From the NCBI GenBank assembly GCA_021234155.1, contig JAJEKV010000011.1:434001-498000 (forward strand): a DNA stretch of 64,000 nucleotides, read 5' to 3'. The notes under the pieces are model-generated. The model saw only the letters and a program-made list of their open reading frames with translations. It ran no database searches and had not been told where the DNA came from. Positions 6,552-39,850 of the stretch are shown one piece after another; position 1 is the stretch's first letter; each line of letters starts with the position of its first letter. The translations under genes and the position numbers were made by a program. The stretch comes from Isoetes taiwanensis. Taxonomy: Eukaryota > Streptophyta > Lycopodiopsida > Isoetales > Isoetaceae.

Positions 6552-6555
6552 CACC

Positions 6556-8229: not shown

Positions 8230-8462
8230 GCACAATGATCAGCATGAAAACCGCTCTATTTGACACGCAATGGGGCGGAAATCGACGGGCGCAACAACCA
8301 GGTTGCGCCATTTGAATAAAAATTGGAAAAAAAGCAAGAAAATCGCTGCATTTGAAATGAATCATAAGGAAAATACACGGAAAAAAAGCAAACAAATAGC
8401 GCGGCCGCGCAGTCTGCCGCAATATATTCACATTGCAAATGGCGCTGCTGCGCTATTTGCTT
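8230..8462. repeat. Palindrome cluster 1 of TE-A
   Basis: Variants of AAATGGCGC-n-GCGCCATTT occur here: GCGCCATTTG near 8306, AAATAGCGCGGCCGCGC near 8393, and the fuller palindrome AAATGGCGCTGCTGCGCTAT near 8437. The same motif recurs at 10.3, 33.0-33.2 and 34.5-34.65 kb, always in non-coding parts of TE-A. It is probably the transposon's own binding site for a DNA-binding protein. Confidence 0.65.
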
Positions 8463-8840
8463 TAATGAAATCGTTATTCTTACAGAGTAGACAACACATC
8501 GTCATAGAATATAGCATCATTTTTTACATAAAGCTAAGGCATAATGACAGGCATCGTATTATTATATAACAACAAGTAAGATATACAAAAGGGGCAAATA
8601 CAGTAAGATCGTATGTTTTATCAGTATTCAAAAGAGTAACCAGTACAGTAATTATTAATACCAAAGAGGTAAATCTTATATACAAGTATGATATGCAAAT
8701 CAGTTTTCAATATTCCTCACCAAAAACAGTAGAATCTGCTTTATCAATATCATCCGGGTTAATCTTACTGAGGTCAATCTGCGTCTCTGTGTCTTGTACC
8801 ACTTGTTCCCCGGATCCTGTGGCGCCTCATTCACCAGCCT

Positions 8841-8904
8841 GTGATGTCTCTCCTCCACCACCATGTGATGTCTCTCCTCCACCACCATGTGATGTCTCTC
8901 CTGT
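8841..8904. repeat. 24-bp coding repeat
   Basis: Three tandem units starting at 8841, 8865 and 8889 (GTGATGTCTCTCCTCCACCA type). On the minus strand they encode the repeated GETSHGGG tail of gene A. The count probably varies between copies. Confidence 0.85.
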
Positions 8905-10309
8905 AGTAGTCCCAGGCAGTGTCAAAAGTCGACGAGTGTCTATGGCTGATGGATCAAGCAAGGGATTAATGACGTTGTCAATTCTTTCAAGAATCCCTAG
9001 CATACATTGGATCTTTTTTGCATCATGCTCATAGGCCACACTACTCCGTTTTAACTGCAATGATGCCCTAGTAAAAGCCCCAGCAAGAAAAAAGTCCAGA
9101 ACAAAGTTACCTGGAGGGCAGAGCTTATCGACAAGGTATGCGGTTGTAGCAGGACCAACCTGCTTGTGAACCAAGTATTCCCCTTCCATACCTTGCCAAT
9201 CGTATTTGAACCTGTCCCTCAGAAGCTTGTTAGCCATATTCTCTGGTTCGGCACCAACTGCATCTTTAGGGGTCTTAGGAACTTCAAGTGCTTTCCGGGG
9301 ATGTTCACCATAAAATCTGAGATCCAGGTTTTCGTCAAGCTGAGCTTGGGCAGAGATCCTGGTGGCTAGAACCACAGCTGTTGGCTCCTTTATGCCACCA
9401 CCAGGTGACCACCCACTTTCCTCTTCATACATGCCTAAGTAAACTCTAGATCTGGATTCTAGTCTCTCAAGGGCAGTACCGAAGAGACTCGTATGTTCTG
9501 GCCTAGGAAAACATATTATCCAGTATGTCTCAACATCTGTCATCTTAGAAGCAGCATCAAAGAATTTGGCCAGAGTGGCGGGATCCCAAATCGGAGTAAT
9601 TTGCCTCGCATCCAAACAGATCATGCTGGCAGGCAACACGATCGGATCCTGGACAATCCCTCCACTAGAAACGCACTCCACATAAAATCTTTTCAACTCG
9701 TTCTCGGCCTCGGGCTTAAGAATCTTACGAATGGATCTGCCTAATGAGAAGGGCACATGACCATGGACGCCCTCTTTCAGTATTCCGTCTGAGACCCACC
9801 TATGATGTACCACACCCCAAGATAGGAGGGTTGAATCTGGGAATCCGTCGGACACCTTTCTCAAGTCCTCGAACTTTCTGTACTTGATTCCAAGTTCATC
9901 ATGGATGTAGTGGAGAATCTCCTTCTTCATGTAGGCAATCATCCTTAAGTTCTGTGCTCTTGTCTTAAAAAAACTTTCACCCTTATAATCGGATGTGACC
10001 TTTACATAGATGTCCCCCCTGATGGCTTCCTGGAAAACAGTTCTGCAATCTTCATAATCCAGGCCTCTCATGCATCTGAGGTAGTTGTCGCTAAAATAGT
10101 CACTATCCTTTGCCCAATTGACTACTATGGGTTTCAGCTCCCCCTTTTTCCATTTATTCCACATTTGGCGAAAGAGAGCGTAAATGTCGTCTGGCATAAA
10201 AACAAACCTGTTGACATCCTTGGTATGCTTTCCCCTGAGAATCTTGTCAATCATGTCCAGGTAATGCTGAAGGACAAACAAAATATGTTAGAGCTTGAAT
10301 GTAGCAAAG

Positions 10310-10400
10310 CAGGGTCAAATGGCGCCGCTGCGTCATTTAGGATCAAATGGCGCCGCCGCGCCGTTTGATGGCAAATGGCGCTGCTGCGCCATTTGATTTA
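10310..10400. repeat. Palindrome cluster 2, inside the gene A intron
   Basis: Three successive palindromes (AAATGGCGCCGCTGCGTCAT, AAATGGCGCCGCCGCGCCGT, AAATGGCGCTGCTGCGCCAT) spaced about 28 bp apart inside the intron at 10267-10415. Presence inside an intron shows they belong to the element and are tolerated within its transcript. Confidence 0.8.
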
Positions 10401-11395
10401 TACAATGGTATATACCTTGTATTCGTCGCTTCTCGATTGCCCTTTTCCTGCTGGTGCTGGTTTGCCGCACTCCTGGTATTGCCTATGCAGGTGGTGTATT
10501 TGATCTGCGTAGGGTTCCTTTAACACCGTCCTGGCTACGATGTCATTGACATCCACACTGAGCTGAAGAAGGTCCAAGTCACTCAGTTCTCCAGAAAGAA
10601 CTCTTCAGATTCTATAAGTGTAAATCTTTCTGAGTTCTATTCTGGCATTTTCTGTCCCCAACTTCTGACACACGAGCTGAGCGGTTGAGACAGAATGGTT
10701 GCCATTGATGATGTAGAACCTCCTACCAACCAGGTCAGATTCTTGTGACCATGGTACGAGCACTGCTTTGTATCTGGATCAAAGGGCACCACATCTGCCG
10801 GCGTAAAGACTGGATGGGGATCTTCGGCAAATGACTTGCACAGTTTCCTAACATGTTCAGGATTTACAACTCTAGCCGTCATGTTAGGAGGTGCCTCTTC
10901 CATATCCCAGATGGATATTTTTCTTATATATGTCACACCTAGAGGAAACATGTGACCGTGCTGCTGTATTTTTTTTAGAGTTTCTTTTGCCAACTCCTCC
11001 TCGGCATCACGGTCCATCTTCAGCTCCGAAGGCACAACCAGACTTTCCATTTTCTTCTGCTTTCTGACCCTCATCTCCTTCTTTGTTTCCCTCTTCCTTT
11101 TAGCCGAAATGCTATCAGCCGTCGAGTCACCGACTTTACCTCTGATGTGGGGAGGATGCTTTAGTATCACTAATGGTTCTCTCTGAATCCTATTTGGCCG
11201 GGGACCTGATAGGAGAACCGATAGGTGTCCTGATACGAGGAGACTTGGGAGGTGACTTGGGAGGAGACTTGGGATTTTCCTCGTCTTTCTTTTGATTCTC
11301 TTCCTCTTGCTCTGTCCCTTCTATATGGAGTGTTCCTTTCTTTGGTTTGGCTTGCCTAAGGTTTGGCCCTCTCTTCCCATCCTTCTTTGTAATCT

Positions 11396-11860
11396 CACTA
11401 CAAGAGAATGAGCATTTTTTGTCAGAAAAAGCGTCAGATGGCCTTCACAAAATGGGCAAGTGTCCAGACCCTACTGGCTGACGATTTTCCTGACGCTTAT
11501 TTTCTGACGCTTTGTTGTCAGAAAAAGCGTCAGAAAAATTGTCGGTTTTTCTGACGCTTTGTTGTCAGAAAAAGCGTCAGAAAAATCGTCAGTTTTTCTG
11601 ACGATTAAGTGTCATAAAAAGCGTCAGAATAAACGTCGCCTATTCTGACGATAAGCGTCATAAAAAGCGTCAGAATAAACGTCTGCTTGTGTCAAAAAAA
11701 GCGTCAGAACTAACACCAGAAAAAGCGTCACATTATTCGTCGGTATTTGTGTCAGTTTCTTCGTCACCTAAATCGTCAAAATCCTCGTCAGTATTATCGT
11801 TTGGAATTTCGTCAAATAACGCGTCACCTATTCTGGCCAAAAAGTTGGTCACTGTAATCA
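11396..11860. repeat. CACTA terminus with subterminal TGACGC array
   Basis: About 20 copies of CGTCA or TGACG in either orientation within 430 bp, many as GTCAGAAAAAGCGTCAG. In En/Spm-type elements such arrays bind the TnpA protein and bring the two ends together. The terminal pentamer starts at 11396; the three bases before it (TCT) would be half of the expected target duplication. Confidence 0.85.
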
Positions 11861-12009
11861 CTGTTGTTGCTCTTTTTGTTGCTATTGAGATGGGTGCTCA
11901 AGCCATTAAATAAACTTGAAATTTATAAAGCTATAATCACACATTCATTGCAATGGACCAACTGCTAATTCAATGGACCAAATTATGATAGAAAGGATGG
12001 CATTTTATT

Positions 12010-13640
12010 GATATGATAAAATTATTGGAATAATGTACAAGATACAAGCTCGATGCTTTGATATATTGTATAATGTACACCATTATCTACTGGACTTGGG
12101 TTGCCAAGAAATCTCTGGCTTGCTCCTTTTTTCTTAAAAGTTGATGGAGACATGTGAAAATCTGCATGTGGGGATGGTGAAGATGGTGGGGATGTAAGTG
12201 ACACATCAACAGGATCGACATTCGAGAGGCTGCATCAAAGAAAACTCATCTGCATTAGCATATCAAGCAAGCAGTAATTAAAATATCCTTGCAAAAATGG
12301 GACAGTTGATACGAAAATATGGCATAGCTGGAGATACTTCCAAATAAAATTACCTTTGTTAGCATTCTAGATGCCTGTGAGTACCCTTCAACTTCAATTG
12401 TTGGTATGCTGGGCATTTGTCACCGGATGCAACTAATTCAAATAATCGGATACCAACGGCGTGCCTCAAGAATTCCCAAACCTATTATGGTCCAATGCAT
12501 ATTGAGCAGAAAATGAAATTTGCAAATAGGAATTTAAAAAATATAAAATGATAAGAGAAACAGGAAATTAGAAAACTTCAGAATGCGCTAAATACATGCT
12601 GGAAATACCTTCACGGTTGAGAACTTTGAAGCATGTGCACAATATCCTAAAGCAAAAATAGGTTGCTGAAATGGGTCAACTGAAGGCTTCCATGAGATTG
12701 ATGCTGCAGAACACTGACATTTTCCTATTTTCTCTGTTTGCATTCATCACATTGGGAAACTCCGCCTGGGATAATGGAAAATCAGTTAAGCATTTCATGC
12801 AAAGGTTTCACTAAAGGCTCTTAAAAGGATTCACAGAATTTAAACTGTGCATGATAGTAGACATTGGTCAACATATTGAGAAAAGGCATATTCTATACAT
12901 CTCTGTGTTTGCCTTTAGAGCAAGAAAGCAAGCATGTATATAGATAGAACCACCTAGTTTGATTGTTTGGCAGCAAGAAGTTGAAAGTTCACAAAAACAT
13001 ATTGTGACAATCTGCTAACCACTGGTGCCAACAACAACGCATCAAATGAAATTTGAAAGCACATTGAATATGATCTTGATAGTGCCTTTAAAACTTGCAA
13101 AACAATGCACCTGAACATAGAAATTGTCTTCGAAAGGCCTTTAACAAATGACAATACCTTTCTAACTGAACCCTTTGCTCCTGTGTCATGGCCAGATAAT
13201 GTGCAACAATTCTTAACCAAGTACATTGATGCTGGTTATGCTTCAATTCGGCAAAACAGAAAGCTCGTTAAACATACAACAAAATTCGAATGTTAAAACT
13301 CCATCAATTTTTGTCCATTCAATTAAAACGTATCTGCTGTATGCTTCATTATTTGGCATAACACAAATAAGATCGAGTTGGCATTCAAAATTCAACAGGT
13401 GACATGACCATGTTTCCACAAGTATTCTGTCATTTTACACAACAGTGACTTGCAATACATCTAACCACTTTGCTTTATTTAATCCTTTTGTCAGCAATTT
13501 GCTTTGCCATACTTGAAGCAATATTCTATAAGTCTTTGGCTGCTCGGGAATGCATACAGGCACTGGCACTTTGGACTTCAAAAGGGAATCATCTTTTGGG
13601 AAGTCGTCTTCAATAACTTTATAAACATGTACCAAAAGAT
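12010..13640 (-). other. Unrecognised spliced coding fragments inside the CACTA element
   Basis: Several minus-strand stretches look like exons with splice signals. One (about 12710-12610) reads SISWKPSVDPFQQPIFALGY followed by CAHASKFSTVK and a GT donor. The next (about 12495-12410) reads VWEFLRHAVGIRLFELVASG. Others read IPTIEVEGYSQASRMLTK (about 12410-12355) and, with a stop at 12022, SPPSSPSPHADFHMSPSTF. A further frame at 13640-13435 reads IEDDFPKDDSLLKSKVPVPV. The mix suggests captured host exons, perhaps from a WD-repeat type protein (ASKFSTVKVWEF), but I cannot name the gene. Confidence 0.3.
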
Positions 13641-13789
13641 AAAACTTTTGTTTTTTTGCACCTTATGACATAATTATTGTGCCACCAATCTAAGCAATTA
13701 TTTGTCATCTGTATCAGACATAAATATGGAACAACGAAATTAAAATTAGAAGAAAAGAAAGTATGCTTAGCTGGACACAAATATGATCC

Positions 13790-14998
13790 AAGGAAGATTC
13801 CCTGTGACAAATCTTTGACCTTGAGGTTTTCATTTGAATCCAGTAGCAAGTTTTCGGGCTTTGAGACAAAAGGTAAAGACAATTTGTGTCAGTTGAAGAT
13901 CATGTTGAATATCAATGTTGCAAAAACATAATTCTAATGCCTCTGTCATGCCCGCACTTTTCTTCTCGTGAGCAAAACAGAATTGTGTAAATGTTATACT
14001 TAAGTTACAACCATCTTTCAATGCATGCCCAAAGGCAGAGCAATCAACACTACTACACACCTTTTTGGCTAAGACAATGAACATTTATCATGTTTATATT
14101 AGGAATTCAGTGCCGAGAAAAGATTATACCCGTAAGTGCTGCGGTAGAGCGCTCAAACCGTTGCTCTTTGACCTTGAGGTTTTCATTTGAATCCAGTAGC
14201 AAGTTTTCGGGCTTTGAGTCCACAAAAGGTAAAGACAATAAATAAGCTTTTGTACATACTAATGGTCTAAAAATTTGCCATAATATAGCACCAACAGATT
14301 ACCTTGAGATCCCTGCGGATACACACACCTCGCTTTCTGGCGAAAGTCAACAAAGCGTTTATGAGCTGCTGGAAATATTTTCGTGCCTCGTCTTTTGTTA
14401 GCAGACCTTGATGCACCTGTTCATATCATCAACAAATTGATGTGATGTGATGTGATCTTGATTTATCCTATAGAATAATCTGCAGGAAATTGACAACACC
14501 AAAGCATTTAACTCCCTTTGGCATTTAATAGGACTTGTTATCATACATGAACAAAATCCAATGCAAATGTATTTGGAATGAATGAAATCTATGGTGGTGG
14601 ATGATCTCTGCATTCAGAATCGTCTAGATCACTGTTTTTTATGTAGTTTTAAAGTTTCCACTGACAGGTTTACAATTTACAAGAAAAAATATATATACTT
14701 CAAGGCATTATTCTTCAAATAACATCACCTAACATTTGCAATAATGCCAGCATGAAGGTATGAAAAGAGAAAATAGAGCTTGAAAATTCTGCTTTGACAT
14801 TTTTACCTCGTACAATTGTACTACATTTGGATGTTTCACCAGCTTCATAGTGGAAATTTCCCGCTTTATCTGAAAATTGCCGATGATTAGACTCCACAGG
14901 TGTAGAAATCTGCCTTGGATGCATCAAAACATCCTAACAACTATGCAAGTAGCGCGTACCTGTATCTGCTTGGTATCATACATGTTGACTTGTACTTC
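13790..14998 (-). pseudogene. CIPK (SnRK3) protein kinase fragment
   Basis: CIPKs are Ser/Thr kinases activated by CBL calcium sensors. Exon 14869-14807 encodes [20 protein letters not shown], the helix C region of CIPKs. Exon 14413-14303 encodes VHQGLLTKDEARKYFQQLIN followed by RKRGVCIRRDLK, where the catalytic HRD is changed to RRD. The next exon encodes PENLLLDSNENLKVKD (subdomain VIb-VII) and is present twice, at about 14211-14168 and 13858-13813. The intron boundary LK|PENLLLD is in phase. The glycine loop, DFG, activation loop and NAF regulatory domain are missing. With the lost catalytic His, the duplicated exon and the location inside the CACTA element, this is a captured, non-functional fragment. 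Confidence 0.75.
13813..14218. repeat. Duplicated CIPK exon (53-bp identical direct repeat)
   Basis: The 53 bases at 13813-13865 recur unchanged at 14166-14218. They contain the PENLLLDSNENLKVKD exon and its splice acceptor. The flanking intron sequence also shares an ACAAAAGGTAAAGACAA stretch, so the duplication covers the exon and some intron. Confidence 0.9.
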
Positions 14999-15403
14999 TT
15001 AGACACGCACAATAATCTACGTACAAGTTAGTAACAATTTTTTTAAATGTTTTAAACATCTCATTTACAACGTACGCTCTTAAATCAAACACTTCCACAT
15101 CATTGCATAAGCACCAAAATACTTGACATTAAAGGTATAAAAAAGTGGTTCATCACAAGAGCTTGCTTTTAGAGCAATATATAGAGCTGTAGGTTCAGTT
15201 TCAGAAGTTGAAAATTCTGAAATCTTGTACCCGTGTAAAAAAACAGCTCTAATTCATAACAGAGGCTTGAAATTGGAGGTTTTACAGCAGACCTGACTTG
15301 CACTGAACACATCCAAATACCAAGTTTCAGAGCTAGAATTCAATAAAAAACACACAAGTAAATTAAGCGTAGATAGTTACCTGATTTTTTCAGCCCTGCA
15401 AAA

Positions 15404-15904
15404 TTATTTGCCCTTTTGAATGGATCTATACTGGGCAATATTCCTAGCCACAGTGGCTTCCCCAAAGTCTGGACTCAGATTCCGTCCGATGCCTCTACCT
15501 TTCTTCCCTTTCTTTTTGGGAATGGATCCATTGCAATTCTTCTCAGTGGCAACCTTCTTTTTCTTCAAAGTCCCCAACTCCTTTTCCTTTGCTAGAAGAG
15601 TAGCAGATGCAACTTCCTCGAAGATATTTTTGTTCAACAGCCCGTCCTCCATCTCTTGTGCCCAAGGAGGAGTACCATGAGCACCAAGAAGCTGTTGATC
15701 TTCCACCTCCCTCTCGTTTTCTTCCCAATCCACGTCATCTCCAACTACAAGCTGGTGCTCCTCATCAAGATTAACATTTTGCTCCTCTTCAAAATTGACA
15801 TTCTGCAACTCTAGATTCACCTGATCACCATCTCCCAAATCATCTCCTTGTATTTTAGGAGGATCTTCATGCAGCTCTATGTTCTTCATTTTCTCCTGAA
15901 ACAT
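15404..15904 (-). CDS. Acidic-then-basic nuclear-type protein, possible last exon of the TnpA-like gene
   Basis: A clean frame of 166 codons with an ATG. The N-terminal half is very acidic and Asn/Glu-rich (NVNFEEEQNVNLDEEHQLV), the middle has PPWAQEMEDGLLNKNIFEE and a helix (LLAKEKELGTLKKKK), and the C-terminus is a basic nuclear-localisation-like patch (KKKGKKGRGIGRN) ending RNIAQYRSIQKGK. Composition fits a DNA-binding accessory protein of a transposon. No enzymatic motif is visible. It could be an independent small gene or the 3' exon of the gene above. Confidence 0.4.
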   Translation of the reverse strand: MFQEKMKNIELHEDPPKIQGDDLGDGDQVNLELQNVNFEEEQNVNLDEEHQLVVGDDVDWEENEREVEDQQLLGAHGTPPWAQEMEDGLLNKNIFEEVASATLLAKEKELGTLKKKKVATEKNCNGSIPKKKGKKGRGIGRNLSPDFGEATVARNIAQYRSIQKGK

Positions 15905-16906
15905 TTATGGTTAGTATGCACTTATGTGGTATCAAAGCACAAGACTTATGTGGTTGCATTCCACTGTTGCAACCAAAATTTGCTACCCATGCATGTGGAA
16001 GTGCCACTGGCAGTAGTCATTTGGTTAGCTTAGCTATGCGTGATAAATCATAGATGCCCAGAGACATATGCAAGGTTAGTCAAACACAGGCTATAAACAG
16101 TAATAGCCAAGTCAATTTAGATTTGAAATCTACATAAAATTAATTTTATAAGTGCCATAAAATTTTATCTTAATTGGTAACACAAGTGCCACAAAATTAA
16201 TTTATTCTGCAAAAATCCCTTTAGTTTTACCCTTAACATTTAGGTAGCTATATTTTTGCTACCTACCATGTATAGGTTGCCCAAAATGGCTATAAATAGC
16301 CATGGTAACACCCTACGGCATAAAAATTAGATACAAAAATATATTTGTAAGGTTAAGCCATTACTGACCTTAGATGCTTTTTTCCTTGAGTTCCTGCATC
16401 GCAGTTAGTTGAGCTTGATCCCAATCCAAAATCACTTAGAACTTTAAAAATGCCTCTCAACGTTTATTAATTTATTTTAGCCCTCAACTTACCCCTTCTT
16501 ACTCATAGAAGCCTATGGGTCAGAGGCCAAGGCTTTAAACACAATTATGGCTTAAGGAGACTATTCTATCAACTTAATACTACCCCTGTCATTTTCGAGC
16601 CATATGCTAAAGGAATTCAAGGTAAACCTTAAATTAGTCCCAACCACATAACAGGCCATGTGGGTGCTTTGCCATGTGGTCTTACGTTTTGAGGCAAAAG
16701 GCTTCCACGAGGCAAACTGCTTAGGTTTCCACCATTGTAGTCACATTTTGCCACAAATGCATGTGGCTTAAGGAGCATTATCTGCTTGTTAATGCAATTT
16801 AAAGTCAATTATCCTACTCTGCCCCGGAGTCTTAGAACAATTCAGAGTAGGTCTTAGCTTTGTTTAAGCAAAACAAATGGCAAGGTTTTACATACCATTC
16901 CAAGCT
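15905..16906. other. Intron-like, AT-rich, no gene seen
   Basis: Non-coding sequence inside the CACTA element with short internal similarity (TTAGATTTGAAATC; ATAAAATTAATTT) but no array or exon that I can support. Confidence 0.4.
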
Positions 16907-17028
16907 GGAATATGTAGCAAAATAACAGGGGGTTTCTTTTGTATTTTTGTACGTTTTTTCCTAAGGTTTTTATATGATTTCATGGATGTATTTGATGAGG
17001 TATACTAATTAGTATATCTAGAGTGCGC
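16907..17028. repeat. Dispersed repeat R2, copy 1
   Basis: Begins ATATGTAGCAAAATAACAGG and ends near TATCTAGAGTGCGCA. A diverged copy with the same start, the same GGGGGTT run and the same end lies at 27290-27405. Both are in non-coding parts of the CACTA element. Confidence 0.75.
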
Positions 17029-17179
17029 ATACGCTTAAACTAATTTTGATGCTTAATTCTAATGGCTTAGACCCATATGTCATATATTTCTTTATTATAT
17101 TATTGTATTTTCTTGTAGTATCATATTCTGCTCGACATGCAAGCCTCGAGATAACTCATTTTAGGGTTATGTGTTGGGA

Positions 17180-18240
17180 ACTTATTGGCTTCCTTCGGCA
17201 TCCGGCAGCTAGTCAGGCCTCGGCATCAACATTCGAGCATCCAAACTGTCTCCAGAAGAACCGCACCAGCACAGGTGCCCGAACACAGGGATCTCCATCC
17301 CGCCCAACACCAAATTATGTCGGCTCCTTTTTACGGTAAAGCCATGGCAAGCATGTTCTTCCTTCCTAATTCTTTCCGATTTATACAGAGTGCTTAAGCT
17401 ATTGGATCTTTGCTTACAGATTCCAGGTTCTGGTGCTGCAGACTTAATGACAGATACGCTCCCTTGCCATAAATTTCCTTCTTGCAGTTATACAGATCCC
17501 TAAAACATTCCCTTGCTCGAACCCCCCTTGCTTTATAACTCTGGAATCAGGGTTCGAGGTAGATCCGGAGCTAAGCCCTGTTGCTGATTATCTTCAGTTT
17601 GCAAATCCGTCAGTGCATCTGGCTGGATTTTTCAGAGGAGGTCATAACTATGGAGCATTGGAACCTTGGCTATTGTCTTAAGGTGGGGTATGGCAAGATT
17701 CGGTTTTCTCAACAGGTAAAATTATCTGTCTAGCACTATGTTCATGTTGAGGTTCTTGCTCTACAAGGTTCTTGCTCTACAAGAAACCACTGGCTTTGAA
17801 TCATTTCTTATTTTCTCGCTCTGCAATCGGAGCTTTACTCAAACCGTCAAACCATGTATTTGTTGAAAAAAAATACCAGAGCTAGATTTGAAAGAGGCAT
17901 TTTTTTCTAAAGCCTGATGTGAAACTGCCAACAACGGCAAGAGTCTGTGCTTTTAAATGCCCCTGGTTCAGGATGGTCAAGTGACAACTTTTGTGCCTGC
18001 AGGTTTTGGATGAAAATATCAAGAAGGAACTGGACAGGATTATGCTGGAGATGAGGTGGAGAAATCCTACTCAGATGTTGATATTAACGTATGCATCTTA
18101 TATGAATTGTAACACAGTAGTTCGTGGTCTATGTCTAATCCTATTTTTCTCTGCAAAAATGACCAGGTAGATGCAATTTCAACAAGATTTCCAGTAGACA
18201 AAGCAGAGTTGATGCGCTTCTTTCTAAACCTTTACAGTTG
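17180..18240 (+). other. Possible captured exons upstream of the MATH fragment
   Basis: Short plus-strand coding-like stretches, for example ELSPVADYLQFANPSVHLAG near 17570-17635, not assigned to a family. They precede the MATH exons with typical intron-like AT-rich spacers, so they may be exons of the same or another captured gene. Confidence 0.25.
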
Positions 18241-18243
18241 CAG

Positions 18244-18692
18244 GTTTTCAATGGGCGATCTACTTTTATCCAGATGGCAAAAATGCTGAAGATAATTCTT
18301 TATATGTTTCAGTTTTTATAACCCTTGCCAGTGAGGGCACAGATGTGAGGGTGCTTTTTGAGCTTACTCTTTTAGACCAAAGCGGGAAAGGAAAACATAA
18401 GGTTCATAGCCATTTTGATCGCTCTTTAGAAAGCGGTCCTTACACTCTGAAATATAGAGGCAGTATGTGGTGAGCCTCTAACAACCCTTTAGGTAAAGTG
18501 TTGATGATGCCTCTAATTGTCTCATTTACGTTGAGTTTTTATTTAATGTGCAGGGGTTACAAACGTTTCTTTAGGAGGACTGCTATGGAGACATATGATT
18601 TTTTAAAAGATGATAGCCTTGCGATTGTAACATGGGCAATGGCTTGCATGCCAAATAATGGGGTGAACAGGAAGGGGGTGAAGATGCCTTAG
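18244..18692 (+). pseudogene. BTB/POZ-MATH (BPM) gene fragment, MATH domain
   Basis: BPM proteins are substrate adaptors of CUL3 ubiquitin ligases; the MATH domain binds the substrate. Exon 18244-18469 follows an AG acceptor and encodes [20 protein letters not shown], then [20 protein letters not shown] and [20 protein letters not shown], a near-canonical plant MATH domain. A GT donor, a short intron and an AG acceptor lead to exon 18554 onward: GYKRFFRRTAMETYDFLKDD. The frame ends at 18692 where BPMs would continue towards the BTB domain, which is absent. The plus-strand fragment sits inside an intron of the minus-strand TnpA-like gene, so it looks captured by the CACTA element. Confidence 0.8.
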
Positions 18693-18739
18693 GATTTCCA
18701 ATTCTTATGGTTAATTGACAACTGCTTTTTCCATCTTAT

Positions 18740-18960
18740 GAGTTATCATGCAAGAAAAGGCAGCGCTAAGTGGGTGCCTTGTACACATATCATGGTCTAT
18801 TGTGGAAATGGGAAGAACTAAACCATTCTTGGTTCCAGAGTGGCTCAAAGGAGGCACTGGGATTGGTGCAGGGTCAACACATTTTTCCCATCAAGGTACT
18901 TCCAATTTGGCAGATTATGATTCTCAGAGAAATCCAGCACCATATAGACTTTAGGGTATG
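18740..18960 (+). other. Coding-like fragment of unknown family
   Basis: A plus-strand stretch reads KPFLVPEWLKGGTGIGAGST and NLADYDSQRNPAPYRL. It looks like selected protein sequence and follows the MATH fragment, but it does not belong to MATH/BTB proteins. It may be another captured exon. Confidence 0.3.
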
Positions 18961-27405: not shown

Positions 27406-27483
27406 GCACCCTTTATGGGCCGTTAATTTTCGTTGGCTGAAACAATCCGAGGGTTGTTGTCTTTCTCTGCATGTTTGTGCATG

Positions 27484-29043: not shown

Positions 29044-29440
29044 AGGGCCCGAAGGGCCCAAAATTTTTTTTAATATAACAACCAACACATAACTACCATT
29101 AACATTAATTATCACAACCATTGGATCCAACACATTTAAATTAAAATCCCCCTTAAACCCCCTTTGGTTTGGGTGCATATTCACACGGGGGGTGACGTAG
29201 GGCAGCGAGAGCCCTTATAATTATATTTTGCACGTACAAAATCAACACCATATAGTATTTTGCTTCAAATCTTAAAGTATTTTGCAAATCTTGTTATACA
29301 GTATAGCAAATTTTGTACTTGCATACCCCACAAACGAGGAATTTTACGTACGGTGTAGATTAAGGAATAAGGGGTGAATATGCCTATCCAACAGCTCTCG
29401 TTGCCTGGAGTCACCCCCCGTGTGAATATGCACCCCTACT
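29044..29440 (+). repeat. Dispersed repeat R1, copy 2, with complete inverted termini
   Basis: After an AGGGCCCGAAGGGCCC palindrome, the segment 29169-29434 is bounded by about 43-bp inverted repeats. The left one is GGGTGCATATTCACACGGGG with GGTGACGTAGGGCAGCGAGAG; the right one is CTCTCGTTGCCTGGAGTCAC with CCCCCGTGTGAATATGCACC. That is the structure of a MITE of about 266 bp. Confidence 0.8.
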
Positions 29441-31990
29441 CGCTCTTACTACATGTTTTGTACGAGCTCTCTACTACAAGATTAACAATTGGGAGTATAC
29501 TTTTTTTGTAGGATTGCAAACTAGCGGATCATGTGGATGTCCCTCGTGCGGCCAAAACTTAACATCTTATAGATCACCACACTTGTCAAAGATGATATAC
29601 ATTGGCCATCAAAACATCCGCTCCGTCGTGGTGATATATCAGATGTGCCCGTGCAAAGAACACCACGTGATTGGTTGGATACATGGAATGATCATGACCC
29701 AAAGACGGGTAAACATCCTCCTGGCATGAAGATGCTATCTGCATTCTACAAATTAGAATATTGGTCTGAATTAAAGATTGCACACCTCTTAGATCCTATG
29801 CACATTTTCAAAAACATGAGCCATTCACTTTGGCGACATCTTACTGGAGATTGGGAAACTCTAAAAGCTAGGATGGATCTAAAGGATAAAGGCATCAAAA
29901 GTGAACTATGGCCAATTGAAGAAGAGGGTAGAGCTCCACGCTTTCCTCGAGGTCCTTGGGTATTGAAGAAGGATGAACTCAAACAAGTAAAATGTGCTAT
30001 CAAAAGTTTGCGCACTCCAACTGGTTATGGATCTTCCCTTAAAAGGGCATTTACAAAAGATGGGGATCTCACATGGTTAAAGTCACATGATTGGCACAAG
30101 TTTCTACAGGTACATATAAGTATATAAAGTGAATAAGTATGACCAACGGACTAAAGTAAACGAACTCCACCACTAATTTGCTTATAGTATCTTCAAGCTT
30201 GTAACTCTACGAGTTGGTGACATCTAATTTGGGTTCCTTCTTATAACAGCATATTCTTCCATGTGCCTTAGAGAATTGCCTCACACCACGCATTCGGAAG
30301 GTCATCTATAAACTCGCCAACTTCTCCAGGTGGGTCTCTTCTAAGCAAATTGTAGCTGCCGATATCCCCATCATGGAAATAGAGATTGCTGAGATATTAT
30401 GCCAACTAGAAGACCTATTTCCCACTAGTATATTTGATCTTCAGGTAATATAGCTATTTTGAATAAATTTCATGTACCAATCACGCCTAACAAATGTGAT
30501 TATTACCAGGTACATTTGTTGGTCCACTTGGCCGCGAGAAATATTGCTTGTGGGTCCGAACCCTTCAAGATGGATGTTCTTTTTAGAGAGATATATGAAG
30601 GCGCTAAAAGGCTTTGTGCGCCAGATGGCAAGGCCTGAGGGATGTATGGCAGAAGGGCATCTTATTGAAGAGACATTATTCTTTTTAACATACGCCACTA
30701 CATCGATAGATCCAAATGCACCAAAAATTTGGAGGAAAGAGATCCCTGATTGGTTAGAAGGTGAAGTCTTACAAGGTCTAGGTAAACAACGGAGATTAAG
30801 CGATGAAATGTTTGAAGGCATCAATAAATTCATTGTGAATAATACAGATAGCCTTAGAAGATGGGTGGAATTGTATAAAATTGAGAAGGCACAAAGAGAT
30901 AGTGATCGAAAAGCATATGCGGCAAGTAACCGTCGAGGACATCATAGGAGAGCTATACAATACCCTCGAGAACTAATGCCTCTACCTGATTCTCCACCCC
31001 ATTGGTGGTTATCAAAAAAACTTAGAGAAGCTGAAGAAAATGGAGAGAAAATTCAAGAAGATGAACTCAACATTGCATTTGGTTCTGAAAAATCAGTAAG
31101 TTCCTATTTTTTGTTGCCAATATGTATTTTGCATTTGTCATAAGCATCTCAGTCACTTATATTTAACCAATGTGTAGGCCAAGTTCCATAATTCAATGTG
31201 GGCATATGGTGCGCACTTTAGAATCGATGACATTGACAAAGCTCGCGTTACTTTTGACTCTGGAATCATTGCCTCATTCAATCAAAGGAGTCAAGCAAGC
31301 ATTTGAGATAATAACCCTATTGATGGAGAACTTGAATATGTTGGGGTTATTACTGATATTATTGATGTGGACTTTCGATCATTTCGACAGACTATACTGA
31401 AGGCCAAGTGGTTCAAACCTTTATATTGTGGACGAAATCACATAGTGAGAGCACATCCTTCTGGATTTTTTGAAGTTGACTCCACCCACGTCTTAGTGGA
31501 CAGAAGTGAGCCATATGTATATCCACATCAAGTTTGACAAGTTTTCTTTCATGTCAACCCTCAAAACAATGCATGGTGGATTGTAATTCCCACGGAACCA
31601 ACGTCTCGTCGACATATTTGCAATACAACCCTTGAAGAACAAGTGCAAGAGGATCAAGGAGAAGAGGTAGAGCATGAGCAAGTAATTGAATTTATTGAAC
31701 CAAGAGATGTAGAAGAATACGAAGCTCAAGAGAGAACAAGCAATCAAGGAGTGAGATCATTGATGCATTTCGATGAAGATTGTATTGAAGAGGAGGTTGA
31801 AGGAGAAACAAACAATCAAGGAGTGAGATCACCGATGCATTCCGACGAGGATTATATTGAAGAGGAGGAAGATATTGAGCTCCATACTCCAAATATGCGA
31901 CGAAGGCTACTCCTACAACTGGATGATGACGAATGGGATGACATTGAACATGATTTTGCGGACGAGAGTTTGATGTCTGGTGATCAATAA

Positions 31991-32307
31991 AAACAACATT
32001 TTATCTTATATTGAGTTCAAATGTGATTAAAGAATACTAATGTACCCCCAATATAATGCTTTTGGTTTTCAAGATATTGCATGCTTTCTTTCTTTCTTTT
32101 AAATTTCGTGCCAATTGCCTTAAGATCTTGAAATTGCTAGATTATTGAATATTTGTGAGGTAACAATAAATTGCCAAATTACAAGAGTTTTAAACTTACA
32201 ACCTTAAAATTCGGCTATGATGTGTTTTTGGTATTTAGACATTGACTGGAGTATATTTAGTCACTTTGAAACATATAAAGATTTTAGGAATATCAAATAT
32301 TAAACTA
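31991..32307. other. 3' flank of TNP2, presumed right end zone of the CACTA element
   Basis: AT-rich with no TGACGC array and no GTAGTG terminus. If the CACTA element ends here, its right terminus has been lost. Confidence 0.4.
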
Positions 32308-33242
32308 CTAGTTAGCCAATATTTGCAATGACATAGCATGTCCATAACAAATTGTGCTGTCCATTAGAGCAGGCATATTACCAGAGGTCTTGGCTCTAAC
32401 AATATGTGACACTGAGTTCTTAGATGCGTCCATGGCTGAACGGAGTATGCCAAATCCTCTAAGGAGCTCGACCGTGCCATTAATAGCAACAGCCTCTCTG
32501 CTTTCATATGAAGGCAACGGCCAGCCTTTTCTTTTGGCAGACACTGTCTGGTCCTTGATGCTGGACTCCATCATCTGTGGATCATAAAACTGCCAGTCCA
32601 TGCAGTACAGATCAATGGTGCAATTCACGGGATCCTCCACCGTGCAACCAAGGAAGTCTATTCTTCCCTGCTTTTTCACCTCCCGCATGTTGACAATGAT
32701 GCCAAGCTGCATCACAACGTCCTGTTCACCACTTCTCGACTTTGTGAGGAGGCAAAGTTCTCTCCTCTTGTCCCCCTTTGTGGGGTCGACACCTTCCTCC
32801 AGAGGTATCGCCCTGACAATTTCCATGCACCATGGCCTTCCAGCCATGACCACGGTCTTCTGCGTCACAACATTTTGTATCTTGGACAACGAAGCTTCAC
32901 CAAAAAAAACAACTAATCAACATTCAAATGATGAAACCCCAACCCAACCCAATGCAGAAGTAACTTTGCACGTAAATGGCGCCACTGCGCCATTTGCATG
33001 CAAATGGAGCCACGCGCCATTTGCATTATACTACATCTGCTCTAAACTAACTACAAAACTAACACATCACAAAGAAATGGCGCGAACGCGCCATTTCTGA
33101 CAGAAGGACCACAGAAACTCACTCTCCTAGACACCTGGATACACGAAACAGCGCGGTAGCGCTATTTATATATCCATGACAACCTTTAAGATCCATAAAA
33201 AACCATAAAAAACAGTACGAACTAACCTGAACCCGAGGCCAT
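32308..33242 (-). CDS. Candidate 5' half of TE-A gene A
   Basis: A minus-strand ATG at 33242 opens a 16-bp exon (MASGS) with a GGTTCAG|GTTAGT donor. The intron (32895-33226) contains the TE-A palindromes, and after an AG acceptor the frame continues in phase: ASLSKIQNVVTQKTVVMAGR and on to a TAG at 32308. The ~200-residue protein has PWCMEIVRAIPLEE, CLLTKSRSGEQDVVMQLGII, GRIDFLGCTVEDPVNCTIDL YC and HIVRAKTSGNMPA; I recognise no domain. Strand, intron palindromes and position opposite gene B match gene A (8.8-11.4 kb), whose coding sequence starts abruptly at the CACTA end. I therefore infer one gene split by the CACTA element. It could also be a separate small gene. No internal stop is present in this part. 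Confidence 0.5.
32974..33170. repeat. Palindrome cluster 3, inside the gene A first intron
   Basis: AAATGGCGCCACTGCGCCAT, AAATGGAGCCACGCGCCATT, AAATGGCGCGAACGCGCCAT and AACAGCGCGGTAGCGCTATT lie within 200 bp, matching the palindromes at 8.4, 10.3 and 34.5 kb. Confidence 0.8.
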
Positions 33243-34491: not shown

Positions 34492-34653
34492 CCAAATGGC
34501 GCTGGTGCGCCATTCGCCTCAAAATAGCGCAGCCGCGCCATTTGCCTCAAAATAGCACAGCCGTGCCATTAAGGCAAATGGCGCGGCTGCGCTATTTTGA
34601 GGCAAATGGCGCGGCTGCGCTATTTGAACAAATGGCGCACTCGCGCCATTTGC
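34492..34653. repeat. Palindrome cluster 4, gene B intron 1
   Basis: At least five copies of the TE-A palindrome in both orientations, e.g. AAATGGCGCTGGTGCGCCAT, AAATGGCGCGGCTGCGCTAT (twice) and AAATGGCGCACTCGCGCCAT, separated by CTCAAAATAGC. This is the densest cluster in the window. Confidence 0.85.
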
Positions 34654-37600
34654 CTATTTTGTCAATATTTTCTGGTCATTTCCGCGGGGTTTCTAACAAT
34701 GTGTGTGTCATTGTATGCTTTCAGGAAAAGGACCTTGCAGAACTTCCTCTGTGGTGACATGGTTGTTGCCAGGGGGCATGAACTGCATAGAGGGCACATA
34801 CATGGAAAGAACATTGACTTTAGGAATGTCGTCGTGGAGGTCACTGAAGCCATAATTCCATCCCATGTGCTTCCCATTCCATGTGCAGGCGCGGATAATG
34901 TTGCTGAAGCCGTAGGCACATTTATCGAATGGCCAAGAAATGACGTGAGAATCTGTCCAGATGCTTCACCTGTATCATCATCTGATACCGAAACCCCCAA
35001 CCTGCCTAGTAGTTCCTCTGCATCGTCATCACCCAGTTCTCCTTCATACCAGTCAATAAGCAACACAGAGAACTTGGTGAACTTATGCAGTGACAATGTT
35101 GTTGTTGGCAGAGGTCATTGGCTGAATAGAAGTAGCATCCATGGGAAGGATGTCGATGCACAGAACGTAGCTGTGCAAGTTATCGAGGCTGTGGTGCCAA
35201 CTCACATGCTTCCGATTGCATGTGCAGGTGCAGATAATATTGCAGAGGCTGTGGGCACATTCATCGAATAGCCTCGAAGCGATATACGTTTTCATGGCAT
35301 TGATGCAGCCCATGATGAGACACCAAGATCAGACGGGGATACCTACCTCACACAACTCATACATAGAATCTGTGGAGGCAGTGTCAGATGCAGATGAATA
35401 GATTGATCCATCAGTGGATTTAGCTACTCGGTTTGCTCGCAGAATACCATCAGATGATGATGAGCCACCACCTAGTTACTCACGAACAGAACTCTTGGAC
35501 ATGCAGTGCCACATTCTCCATTCTTGTACTAGAACTAAATATGCAGAAGCTATAGTTCTATTCAGTGATCCACAGGATGCTGTTGATGATGAATTCTTAG
35601 GAGACACAAAGGTTGGCCTTTGTGTTGGAAAGGTGCTTCCTGAACTAATGAAAGAGGATCTGAGATGTCATGCTTGTGCAGAAAGGCCAAGTGAGAATGC
35701 ACTTGTTCGGTGGAAAAATAGTGATGTGATGCTGCTGGATGGAAGGACTGTCTCACAACATCTGCAAGCTCGAGAAGCTAAAGAAAATGAGGATATAGAG
35801 CTATCATTTGAGGACAACATTCAGGCTCAATTCAAATGAAAAAGGAAGTATACTTACACAAATAGGATTCCAAGAGAGCACAAGGGAAAAAGCAAAGAGG
35901 AAAGGCTATGCTCAACAAGTTCCATCAACAAGTTTATGAAGTCAAGCTGCTGCAAAAATACCTGCAACAAGAAACTTACCAAGCATCAAGTACATGAATT
36001 AAGAAAAGAATTTTTATCCCAACCATACAATGCAAGCGTTACGTTTTTTTTTTACGTGCTGAGTGTGACTTACATAGGAGAAGGAGAGGACAGGATAGTG
36101 CTCAAGGGGATGGAATTCTGTCTGGCTGGGTGGTGCATGGCTTTAGGTATCAGTCAGTCAACATTTTACAATTGGAGAAACAGATTTGAAGCAGGTGGAA
36201 AGGTAGATGAACATGGTAATACTGGCTCTAAGAAGCCTAGATCCACTACACTGGCCACCGAATGTGTACTAGACAGATTCATTCAGGAGAATGCTGAAAG
36301 TATTCCCCATAGGAGCAAAAGAGGTAGAGATGATGTAAGAGAAAATGTACGCAAGCTTCCTTCCATTCTTAATAAGAAGCTTATACATAAAGAAGTTGGT
36401 GCAGTCATTGAAGAGCTTACAGGAACAACTGTAGCCTTGAACTCTTTATAGGATATGGAAAAGGGAATTTCCAGATGTTAGCATTGCAAAAAATACAGCC
36501 TTCTCTAAATGCAACATCTGCGTGGTAATTAAGCAAAAGCTGGAAAAAACAAAAGATACAAGAGAGAGATGAAATCTTGCAATTCAACGTCGGTCTCATA
36601 TGCTAGAGCAACGTTCTTGCAGAAGTCAATATTGGCATTGGAGAGCATTGTCACAGCTGTCTCCAGAAAATCATCTATGTATAATACATGATAAGACGGA
36701 TCAGGTTAAGACTTTAGTGCCTAGAGAGGTGATCGCTTGAAGAGCAGTTTTGACAGGAGCTCTGATTCATGGGCATGGTGGTCGTGCCTATGGTCATTTC
36801 TCACTTGATTTATGGAAAGATGATTCAAACTTCTACATTGGTTCACTTTCTAGGATATTGCATAACTTGGAATTGGTACAAGAGGACAAGATAGGTGACT
36901 TATGTGGAAGTAAGTCTGCATATTGCAAATGGATGCAAGCAGTCAAGGATATCAATCCTTTGAAGAACAAACTTGCTTCTATGCCAGAAGTATTGCCAAA
37001 TGCTTCAACTACAACGAATCCTGAGGTGTTCAACCCTCTCCCCCGAAATCTCTATTTGCAACTTGATAATGCATCAGGGCAAAACAAAAATAGGTATGTC
37101 TTTTCATACTTATCTTATTTGACTTGGCTTAAGGTCTTTGATGAGATCCAAGTGGGCTTTATGACGGTCGGCCACACCCATGATGATATTGATGCTTTAT
37201 TTGGAAAATTTTCAACCTTGATGACTTCATCGGATGCTTTGACACTACCAAAGCTACTTGTTCAGCAAGTGCAATGCAAAATCTCCAATTCCATACTTTA
37301 TTGATGAAGTTCCAAATTGGAAGGCTTTTGTGAAGGGATTCATCCCTGATAAGGGCCAATGCCTGGTTGGGCATACTGAACCATTGCTCTTCAAATTTAA
37401 GATGGCAGGAGATTGGCCTGTTATACAATACAAAATGCGTCCTACACATAAAGAGTGGCTTTCAGCAGATTCTCCAGGAGTTAGAATGTAGAAGGAGGAT
37501 GAACATGGTCAGCCAATGCTACCAAGTGGTGTGCCACAAAATATTCCTTCTAGACCAACATTGAAGGATCTTCCAGGGTTGAAGGATAGCATCAAAAATA

Positions 37601-38377
37601 CATCTCCCTATGGAAGGACATATGTAAGAATCAAGAGAGTAGCTTGTTTGCAAGGCAATACACAGCAAGTGTTGAGTATTGGAGCCAGCTTTTTATCTCT
37701 TTGGAGGATGTTGCTCCAGGACGTCCTCAAAATGATGCATTTTTGCCACAAACAAGACAAGCTCCTCTAGAACAAACATCATTTGTTCCAGAGGTCGACG
37801 TATCTGCCTTGGTCACGCGACCTTTACCATCTTATTGTGGCCCGTCAGATGGCCGTCCAGTGTTGCCTCTTGAAGAGTTTGATCCTCACGTACATGTGAC
37901 AAAGGGTATGTTTGTTCTAGTCAGACCTGGAGATGATAACACTGCCACTTGGTTAGGATATGCAGAGGAGAATGCTGCTCTTGATCCAGAATCTACATAT
38001 TTTGGCCATATTTTTGTATCGTGGTGGAAGCCTACTGGAGGGGACTACAAAGACTGCTTAACTAAGCGTTGGCGGCCTAATCCTTCCGATCCTTCAAGGT
38101 ACGAAAATTTAGATGCTATTCATTATGCTTGGGATGCCAATGGCAAGAGGCCGAAAACAATCCAAATTCCGAAATATATTGTAGACATGTGGAAAGACAT
38201 AGCACATTGTTCATCTTAATACATGAGATCTTGTACTTGTAATACATATCTTTCATCTTAATACATAAGATCTTGTACATTATTGTAATGTACATCATAT
38301 ATAACTGCTTACATCTTTAATATATAAATGCATACATGATTCATAGATAAGATGGTCAGAAGTGCTTATATGGTGAT

Positions 38378-38620
38378 TCACTCATCATCATGATCTGTTG
38401 TGGTGATCCCACTTATCTCATAGCTGTTGTGCTCGGGAAGCCAAATGAGGTGGATCATAACAAGAATCAGCCCGGGGCAACGAATCTCAGCACCATTGGC
38501 TTTGGATTGCAGGTAGGGATCAAGAAGAATACCCCTATCACTGCAACCCACAAGATCAGTGTAGCTCATTGAGCACTTGATCGCCTCGATGTGGTGAACA
38601 GAAGAAGGCGAATAATCCAT
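38378..38620 (-). CDS. 80-codon gene 1 of a three-member family
   Basis: An intact ATG frame of exactly 80 codons. The sequence has IKCSMSYTDLVGC, a DPYLQSKANG block, VMIHLIWLPEHNSYEI and an acidic DDE C-terminus. It shares IKCxMSYxDLxxC, LQSKA, IHLxWLP and DDE with the gene at 38861-39103, and I-C-M, IHLIW and DDSE with the plus-strand gene at 39332. A TATA-like ACTATAAAAG lies on the minus strand near 38657-38665, and the upstream region is homologous to that of gene 2. No known domain is recognised. It sits 160 bp beyond gene B in tail-to-tail orientation. It is probably a TE-A accessory protein; the role is unknown. Confidence 0.65.
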   Translation of the reverse strand: MDYSPSSVHHIEAIKCSMSYTDLVGCSDRGILLDPYLQSKANGAEIRCPGLILVMIHLIWLPEHNSYEISGITTTDHDDE

Positions 38621-38860
38621 TAGAGATGAATGACCTCTAGCCCCGAATGGAGCTGCTTTTATAGTGAAGTAAAATTATTGATGTGAATTATTGGGGTAGA
38701 CTGTAGCGCCATTATTGTAAGTATCATGTACTCGTACAAGTATGAAATATTTAATTACTCAGATTCTATACATCAACTAATATTCACTATGCTTATATTA
38801 TTATATCCTTAACAGATACACAAATCATAAGTGCTTATATTTATACATATCATCATTGAT

Positions 38861-39103
38861 TCACTCATCATCAACACCTGCTGAGGTGATGGCATTCAGC
38901 TCATAGTTCTCCTGATCAGGAAGCCAATATAGGTGGATCACAACACGAGTGAGCTTCCTGCAACCACTCGCAGGACCATCTGCTTTGGATTGCAGCCATG
39001 GATCCATCTTGACACCCTTTATTGCGCAATCATACAGATCACTGTAGCTCATGTAGCACTTGATGGTTCGGATGTTCTCCGGACGATCAGGCAAGGAAGC
39101 CAT
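38861..39103 (-). CDS. 80-codon gene 2 of a three-member family
   Basis: An intact ATG frame, same length as gene 1. Motifs: IRTIKCYMSYSDLYDC, MDPWLQSKADGP, VVIHLYWLPDQENYEL and a VDDE end. The 60 bases upstream of the ATG match those of gene 1 (ATGAATGACCTCTA and GTATAGTGAAGTAAAATTAT on the plus strand), so genes 1 and 2 arose by tandem duplication including the promoter. Substitutions between them are spread over the protein while conserved residues persist, which suggests selection. It is divergent from gene 3 across 228 bp. Function unknown. Confidence 0.65.
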   Translation of the reverse strand: MASLPDRPENIRTIKCYMSYSDLYDCAIKGVKMDPWLQSKADGPASGCRKLTRVVIHLYWLPDQENYELNAITSAGVDDE

Positions 39104-39331
39104 GGGAGATGAATGACCTCTAAGACCGAATGGTATAGTGAAGTAAAATTATTGATGTCCACTGCAGCAAAATTATTGGGTATATACGAGTACCATACAA
39201 GTATGTATATGATCCAATAATTTCCATGTATATACCATCAATAATTTTGGTGCTACATACCATCAATAATTTTGGTGGGTATAAATATACATCAAATTGC
39301 CGAGTGCAGCAACATTGGCCTCCATCTAGCT
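39104..39331. promoter_or_regulatory. Shared promoter of 80-codon genes 2 and 3
   Basis: A head-to-head spacer with AAAATTATTGATG on the gene 2 side and two CATCAATAATTTTGG copies on the gene 3 side, forming an inverted arrangement. TATAAATATAC at 39280-39290 is a good TATA box for gene 3. Confidence 0.55.
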
Positions 39332-39574
39332 ATGACGCATTCTGGTCCTGAACGTGATTCTATCACTTGCAAGATGAATCATGAGAACTTCAAGCGATGC
39401 CGTGAGCGAGATATACCGCTTGAAGACTGGATCACCACTGTTGCTCTCAATCCTCGCCATTATCCTGATCCCTTCGATGTTATCATCCATCTTATATGGA
39501 ATAGAGAGCATCAAATGTTCATGATCGAAAGGATCTCTGGAGCGCCTTCTGCTGCTTCTGATGATTCAGAATAG
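39332..39574 (+). CDS. 80-codon gene 3 of a three-member family
   Basis: The ATG at 39332 gives again exactly 80 codons; the frame is open further upstream, but this start matches the paralogues and follows a TATA box by about 45 bp. The sequence has SITCKMNHENFKRCRERDIP, LEDWITT, DPFDVIIHLIWNREHQMFMI and an acidic DDSE end. It aligns with genes 1 and 2 without gaps at I-C-M, F/L..C, the D/E-x-W/Y block, V-I-I-H-L-x-W and the acidic tail, but is clearly more diverged. No known fold is recognised. Confidence 0.65.
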   Translation: MTHSGPERDSITCKMNHENFKRCRERDIPLEDWITTVALNPRHYPDPFDVIIHLIWNREHQMFMIERISGAPSAASDDSE

Positions 39575-39579
39575 TAAGA

Positions 39580-39850
39580 GTAGAAGAATAATATTACTTA
39601 TCATCTTGTTGTAATCTGGTTGTGTTATTATACAACAGGTATATATAACCTTTTGTAATACACATAACCATACTATAAGTAATAGTAGAAGAATAATAGT
39701 ACATGTTATCTTATTGTAATCTGGTTGTGTTAGTATACAACAGGTACATAACCATACTATATGTTCTGAGGTATAGTATGCAACAGGTATACATAACCTT
39801 TTGTAATACACATAACCATACTATAAGTATTGAGGTATACATAACCCTCC
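39580..39850. repeat. Tandem repeat downstream of 80-codon gene 3
   Basis: Units containing TTGTAATCTGGTTGTGTTA, TACAACAGGTATA and ACACATAACCATACTATAAG occur two to three times with a period of about 110 bp. Non-coding; it may lie in the 3' untranslated region. Confidence 0.8.

Follow-up and report, generated by a model that had tools for sequence, protein, structure and literature searches.

A decayed multi-gene terminal inverted repeat transposon with a DUF7869 gene, a methyltransferase-like gene and palindrome arrays in Isoetes taiwanensis

A stretch of 64,000 nucleotides from the lycophyte Isoetes taiwanensis (contig JAJEKV010000011.1, positions 434,001 to 498,000; hereafter the window, to which all coordinates refer) contains a locus, TE-A, with two long genes in divergent orientation (gene A, minus strand; gene B, plus strand), three genes of 80 codons (s1, s2 and s3), and several groups of one palindrome. 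Do these parts belong to a single mobile element, and what role might a gene that resembles ParB and amino-methyltransferases have in a plant transposon? The interval is almost certainly a single decayed copy of a family of multi-gene terminal inverted repeat (TIR) DNA transposons of about 11 kb in I. taiwanensis; the resemblance of gene A to a methyltransferase is limited to part of the protein, and its resemblance to ParB did not exceed that of shuffled controls.

Termini, copies and linkage of the parts

We retrieved ten copies from this genome on the basis of neighbouring listed matches to gene B and s2 and without regard to gene A. Alignments of the window with these copies start at 8115/8116 (four copies) and stop at 39916/39917 (seven copies) or at 39921 (an eighth), and these limits fall on the arms of an inverted repeat of 26 nt that is 88% complementary. 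Direct duplications of 4 bp flank the element in all four copies for which both ends were read (TACA in the window, TTTT in C1026 and C1064, TTTA in C1078). Inverted termini and target duplications in independent copies identify TE-A as a TIR DNA transposon. The first-pass annotation, which had united gene A, gene B, the small genes and the palindromes in one mobile element and had proposed that full-length copies be gathered to define its termini, is borne out on this point by the shared 25-bp inverted ends and the 4-bp duplications. A CACTA identity for TE-A itself was rejected, on termini reading AAGCAGAG, on the 4-bp duplication, and on the location of the Transposase_21 match in a nested insert; CACTA elements have a 3-bp target duplication.

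The extent proposed earlier, 8230-39850, differs from the termini at 8116 and 39916 by no more than about 120 bases, and it fails as a measure of the element's own DNA. Two thirds of that interval (21 kb) is a foreign insert, and the element proper comprises about 11 kb: four related copies (C1026, C1106, C908 and C996) are continuous from the equivalent of 11396 to the equivalent of 32354, which rules out the whole 31.6 kb as the element's own. The insert is a CACTA-type transposon, for which a right inverted repeat was looked for and not found. In C908 a single frame joins the part at 32354-32916 to the part at 10640-11320, and the insert therefore lies inside gene A. A weak SET-domain match is located in the insert at 24273-24893 on the plus strand (PF00856, E 3.5e-4, 21.4 bits, cut-off 22.4), possibly a captured chromatin gene.

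A search of the genome (1,658,258,908 bases, 1110 contigs) with the two ends, each extended by subterminal bases, at up to 3 mismatches gave 246 left and 221 right ends, compared with none for the reversed patterns used as control. Pairing of 100 left and 100 right places among the matches listed gave 43 end pairs, 26 of them spaced 10.8-11.9 kb, 17 longer and none shorter; at least one listed match to A, B or s2 lies inside 26 of the 43. No miniature or internally deleted derivatives (below 10.8 kb) were thus seen among these pairs; a general absence of such short forms would be unusual for a DNA transposon.

By tblastn of the window proteins, the gene order A(-), B(+), s1(-), s2(-), s3(+) recurs across the ten copies in one orientation. 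Parts of gene B, s1 and s2 are present in all ten (s2 by choice of the copies), and gene A and s3 in nine each; gene A is represented by its middle part alone in C1106 and C908, and is cut by the end of the stretch in C1033. Genome-wide, 88 gene A rows were kept of 95 matches (the seven dropped were second, low-scoring fragments of listed places); the rows kept include two adjoining fragments of a single gene (C1027) as well as the row for the window itself. Among the matches listed, 59 of the 88 rows have a left end, gene B, s2 or a right end in the expected arrangement (left end, 24; gene B, 30; s2, 20; right end, 25), compared with two when strands were flipped and none after a shift of 500 kb. 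In two rows a listed gene B lies within 40 kb in another arrangement only. Among the matches listed, the parts of the element travel together, which does not extend to a claim that gene A is confined to the element, and a pattern of independent parts with termini between them, the outcome that would have contradicted a single element, did not appear. The closest pair among 20 s2 loci is 97.3% identical over 2.2 kb; there is therefore no sign of very recent movement.

Several observations weigh against a tightly linked family. Among the matches listed, 17 of the 43 end pairs hold no A, B or s2, and 29 of the 88 gene A rows have no partner; the expected s2 lies beside just 21 of 150 gene B matches, with one more case elsewhere (150 matches listed of each). 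One copy (C379) carries gene B and the small genes and no gene A within the stretch read, s3 is missing in C1061, and the flanks vary where a single end was read, some of them not being AT-rich (CCAC, TGTG, GTAT). A chance pile-up of unrelated transposons would be in keeping with the nested CACTA-type element and with the abundance of DUF7869 genes in this genome; the same arrangement between the same termini at many places refutes it, and its probability is practically nil.

Genes and palindromes of the element

The central part of gene B matches DUF7869 (PF25273) at 36741-37301 with 119.1 bits (144.9 bits in the related copy L012; cut-off 26), and its motifs LDNASGQNKN and GHTHDDID, read by eye together with their context, suggest an RNase-H-like DDE/D transposase. 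The upstream helix-turn-helix-like part matches PF13551 just below the cut-off (E 4e-6, 27.2 bits, cut-off 28.1). L012 contains a frame of 748 codons that reads across the stop and the frame changes of the window copy; gene B is hence decayed in the window, and the possibility that every frame break is an intron is ruled out. Of the two divergent spliced genes described at first pass, the divergence stands, and the splicing stands in part, several breaks of gene B being decay; we infer splicing of genes A and B from the sequence. Two results speak against the transposase assignment: the open reading frame of gene B gave no significant match to a solved transposase among the PDB sequences, and AlphaFold2 single-sequence models of gene A exon 2 and of the DUF7869 exon were unusable (predicted local distance difference test, 34.5 and 33.4, respectively).

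Genes for DUF7869 appear very numerous in the genome: a first look gave 9902 candidates, and the 150 of these that were scored all exceeded the cut-off. The name was not mentioned in the literature searched, from which subscription papers were excluded. The eight best-scoring places fetched (L001-L008) belong to another subfamily, 42-46% identical over the best 74 residues, which seems to form a large transposon group of its own; no match to gene A, s1-s3 or the palindrome was found in their 1.5-kb flanks.

In the window copy gene A is dead, being split by the insert and frame-broken in its middle part. The C-terminus carries motifs X, I and II in the permuted order of the beta-class N6_N4_Mtase family, to which the piece 'EYLVHKQVGPATTAYLVDKLCPPGNFVLDFFSGGAFTRAS..YEHD' of copy C1064 fits. 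A profile of gene A exon 2 (5 sequences) aligned by hhalign with methylases (Escherichia coli YhdJ plus 10 phage methylases) at a score of 43.8 and a probability of 73, compared with at most 25.7 in 30 column shuffles, 21.4 for the reversed profile and 13.5 for one gene B sequence; the methylase profile in turn finds the gene A pieces of C1064 (E 2e-6), the window (E 1e-5) and C1078 (E 0.006) in a set of 9 sequences. Taken by itself, a piece of 83 residues matches a single Pfam family, PF01555 (E 0.006), and scores best in the PDB with M.RsrI (E 0.07). These last figures also count against the assignment, as the PF01555 match has 17 bits at a Pfam cut-off of 26.7, the next PDB matches, close behind M.RsrI, are unrelated dihydroorotases (E 0.16), and the piece was picked after the motif was seen. 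Gene A gave nothing significant against PHROGs, NCBIfam, the PDB by sequence, or phages by tblastn, and a scan of IMG/VR gave 91 pattern matches, none of which was confirmed.

At the position of motif IV, six of eight gene A regions (window, C1078, C1064, C1061, C16 and C996) read CLDARQ or CLHARQ, and the catalytic [DNS]PP[YFW] is absent in all six; the position is not readable in C1026 and C1033, and four xPPH matches (one in C1064, two in C996, one in C1026) lie away from it. DNA modification is doubtful because the catalytic motif is missing wherever it could be read. The earlier assignment to the amino-methyltransferases is accordingly retained for the half that binds S-adenosylmethionine and given up for the catalytic motif, and a DNA-modifying module is unlikely. 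An active amino-methyltransferase, marking the DNA of the element with N6-methyladenine or N4-methylcytosine, would agree with the X-I-II order and with methyltransferase-bearing elements elsewhere, described for DIRS and for dinoflagellate and charophyte retrotransposons (PMC5890265) and for viral Mariner elements (PMC3627910); with no [DNS]PP[YFWH] at the motif IV position in the six readable regions of the eight, this explanation is quite improbable, and an active methylase was rejected as a candidate.

The middle part of gene A appears ParB-like by eye (INPEHVRRLCKSFAED..P..VVPF..YIINGNHSVSAAQLV), with the Arg of the GHxR box replaced by Ser. The ParB assignment made at first pass is no better than shuffled controls: hhalign scores 18.3 against 10 phage ParB-N sequences and up to 18.4 with shuffles, and its alignment falls outside the motif. 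The best hit of a phage ParB-N profile by hmmsearch has E 0.05 among 9 sequences, Pfam gave no ParB match (ParB_N, PF02195) up to E 10, and no match to this part was found in Pfam, PHROG, NCBIfam or phages. A protein of phage Javan113 combines PF02195 (24.4 bits, just below the cut-off) with PF01555, and 253 records match its ParB-N part. Gene A resembles such phage proteins in the proposed domain order; its product is much longer, its ParB similarity is not significant and its catalytic motif is lost. A partition-like module, in which a ParB-like clamp would load at parS-like palindromes and spread over the element, would draw on this phage-like order, on the INPEHVRRLCKSFAED..YIINGNHSVSAAQLV motif and on the clustering of the palindromes; given the shuffled controls, the lack of any library match and the Ser in the GHxR box, it is very improbable.

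Gene A has been maintained for long as a protein, as indicated by exon 2 of the window and C1078, which differ at a proportion of nonsynonymous sites (pN) of 0.18 against a saturated proportion of synonymous sites (pS) of 0.77. The same two copies share 95% DNA identity in the DUF7869 exon and 97% in s3. Less diverged gene A pairs have ratios of nonsynonymous to synonymous substitution (dN/dS) of 0.09-0.67, and gene B pairs of 0.21-0.78. Compared with the window, the C-terminal and middle parts of gene A in nine copies are 85-93% identical in five and 66-74% in four, and the DUF7869 exon is 92-97% identical in all ten; the identity of gene B is biased, the copies having been picked partly for a similar gene B, and the contrast within single copies is unbiased. 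The sequences point to a mosaic element with near-identical gene B modules beside two lineages of gene A, i.e. to an exchange of modules between elements. A single transposase module beside two old lineages of gene A is the pattern that a role of gene A in specificity or in an arms race would predict, which is no proof of either.

The 80-codon genes each encode exactly 80 residues from the first ATG, and s1 places share about 43-57% identity with s2 places and about 31-34% with s3 places; their description as three paralogues of equal length beside gene B agrees with these lengths and cross-matches. Pooled pairs gave dN/dS of 0.57 (s1), 0.59 (s2) and 0.53 (s3), calculated from distinct 240-base sequences (12, 23 and 9, respectively) of near-full-length matches, with stop codons skipped. 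These ratios are only mildly below 1, i.e. the constraint is mild, decaying copies included, and this tells against a firm role for the small genes.

The constraint on gene A bears on a further explanation, in which a simple DUF7869 transposon amplifies gene A and the 80-codon genes along with itself as captured or hitch-hiking passengers that have no role in its movement. DNA transposons are known to capture host genes, as in Pack-TYPE elements (PMC8903248), and L001-L008 show no match to gene A or s1-s3 in flanks of 1.5 kb, so that the transposase may function on its own; flanks of this length are too short to reach the expected place of gene A. The low pN between the two lineages, the gene order repeated in nine to ten of ten copies, and the lack of any end pair below 10.8 kb among the 43 from the matches listed speak against it, and passengers are unlikely.

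The recurrence of the palindromes described at first pass is confirmed; they lie in the left flank, the presumed intron of gene A, the region between the genes and the start of gene B. The window contains 13 sites at up to 5 mismatches, 12 in the element outside the insert and one (with 5 mismatches) in the insert; none was found in the window outside the element, and none of 100 single-base shuffles of the element contained a site at up to 4 mismatches. The unit CAAATGGCGCNGCNGCGCCATTTG occurs at 545 places in the genome at up to 1 mismatch (control, 0). The first 50 exact sites among the matches listed form 39 clusters, of which 18 lie within 3 kb of a gene A match and 30 at most 15 kb from a listed element feature, an area that covers 0.8% of the genome. 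Each of the ten fetched copies contains 3-21 sites at up to 4 mismatches, in at least one of the left subterminal region, the gene A intron, the region between A and B, and the region beside B. Of the 24 palindrome positions, 14 are at least 90% alike in both gene A lineages, and the spacer positions 30-72%, for sites picked at up to 6 mismatches. This choice by itself makes the core more alike, and the units could also have been kept similar by tandem amplification and conversion. A fair reading of the sequence is that the palindrome is a putative cis-acting site. Two points are to be set against a function linked to gene A: nine of the 39 clusters lie near no element feature among the matches listed, and it is position alone that ties gene A to the palindromes.

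The coordinates of the features are collected in Table 1. A tandem array of CTGTAGTAAT is located between genes A and B (34199-34443) and is also aligned in several copies. Elsewhere, an interspersed repeat of about 280-350 bases occurs at three places of the window with 79-88% likeness (19177-19528, 29041-29393 and 52333-52610), and two tandem copies of a 179-base unit, 98% identical, lie at 6555-6917.

Table 1. Features of TE-A in the window
Feature	Position	Strand	Remarks
Left target site duplication	8112..8115		TACA; pairs with 39917-39920
TE-A element	8116-39916		TIR-bounded; 25-bp inverted termini, 4-bp duplication TACA/TACA
Left terminal inverted repeat	8116..8140	+	other copies read AAGCAGAGTTTCATTAAAGTTGGAA
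Palindromes, left subterminal	8393..8459
107-base insertion	8465..8571		missing from copies C1026 and C1064
Gene A, C-terminal exon	8830..10287	-	486 codons; beta-class amino-methyltransferase motifs X-I-II-like; no [DNS]PP[YFW]
Palindrome array, presumed gene A intron	10316..10395
Gene A, middle part	10640..11320	-	ParB-like motif by eye; frame broken; readable in L047:4019-4663
Nested CACTA-type transposon	11396..32353	+	CACTACAAGA end; Transposase_21 and DUF4218 proteins; within gene A
Gene A, N-terminal part	32354..32916	-	continuous with middle part in C908
Palindromes between divergent genes	32973..33097
Palindrome array upstream of or at start of gene B	34493..34652		26-28 base period
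Gene B	about 34573-38216	+
Gene B region, N-terminal part N0	34573..35268	+	internal repeats
Gene B, N-terminal and helix-turn-helix-like part	35402..36448	+	stop and frame breaks in window copy
Gene B, DUF7869	36741..37301	+	presumed DDE/D transposase core; LDNASGQNKN, GHTHDDID
Gene B, C-terminal part	37590..38216	+
80-codon gene s1	38381..38620	-
80-codon gene s2	38864..39103	-
80-codon gene s3	39332..39571	+
Right terminal inverted repeat	39892..39916	-
Right target site duplication	39917..39920		TACA

Proposed functions and comparison with known systems

The best explanation as a whole, which we regard as probable, is a decayed element of about 11 kb with gene B as its transposase, gene A as a regulator that works on the palindromes, and the small genes as cofactors. 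The gene B product would be a DDE/D transposase that excises and integrates the element at its 25-bp termini with a 4-bp stagger; the gene A product would be a catalytically degenerate protein of methyltransferase fold that might bind the palindromes of the element and govern how it is expressed or silenced; and the 80-residue proteins might serve as small cofactors. An action of gene A through the palindromes, modelled on that of VANC proteins, is put forward tentatively and at low confidence, which is lowered a little further because the compared sites were picked by similarity. An extension of this proposal, a self-recognition system in which a dead methyltransferase-fold protein (perhaps with a ParB-like clamp) sits on the element's own palindrome arrays for anti-silencing or for steering transposition, with gene A lineages swapped among elements that share a transposase module, is speculative and decidedly unlikely.

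Termini, target duplications, gene content and a survey of copies are now given for a multi-gene DUF7869 transposon of a lycophyte, and two questions can thereby be put to the test: do DUF7869 proteins act as transposases, and for what reason does a methyltransferase-like gene lacking the catalytic motif persist beside palindrome arrays in a plant transposon? The accessory set of TE-A is unusual for a TIR DNA transposon, and the combination was not found in the literature searched; likewise, no ParB/methyltransferase TIR element of plants and no similar transposon-borne methylase was found there, subscription papers and Repbase being outside that search.

Among known systems, Sola2 elements resemble TE-A in their 4-bp duplications, inverted termini, large transposase and, in some families, extra genes (Fanzor1), as described in PMC3627910. 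The likeness is one of published description; the duplications of Sola2 are AWWT or ATAT/AAAT/ATTT (PMC3627910), whereas those of TE-A (TACA, TTTT, TTTA) are mostly AT and not AWWT, and the flanks read at a single end vary. No Sola2 element with gene A, s1-s3 or such palindromes was found in the literature searched, with Repbase outside the search.

VANDAL transposons are MULE-like, and their transposase family differs from that of gene B. They resemble TE-A as multi-gene DNA transposons of plants with a short motif in noncoding tandem repeats, and their VANC anti-silencing proteins bind such tandem motifs according to PMC10398659; binding is reported there for VANC and guessed here for gene A, which is likened to VANC by description only. 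Of a VANC-like system, in which a protein of the element binds its repeats and removes silent marks, TE-A shows the repeats and their positions.

Retrotransposons with a DNA methyltransferase (DNMT) gene and DIRS elements with a Dam-like methylase share with TE-A the presence of a methyltransferase-type gene in a mobile element, and purifying selection, seen here for gene A, is reported for a charophyte family (PMC5890265). Those elements are retrotransposons, whereas TE-A is a DNA transposon with a beta-class-like and apparently catalytically degenerate protein. KolobokP composite transposons, an animal family with a His-Me endonuclease as accessory protein (PMC9587614), correspond to TE-A in the combination of a DDE transposase and an unrelated accessory protein within one TIR element.

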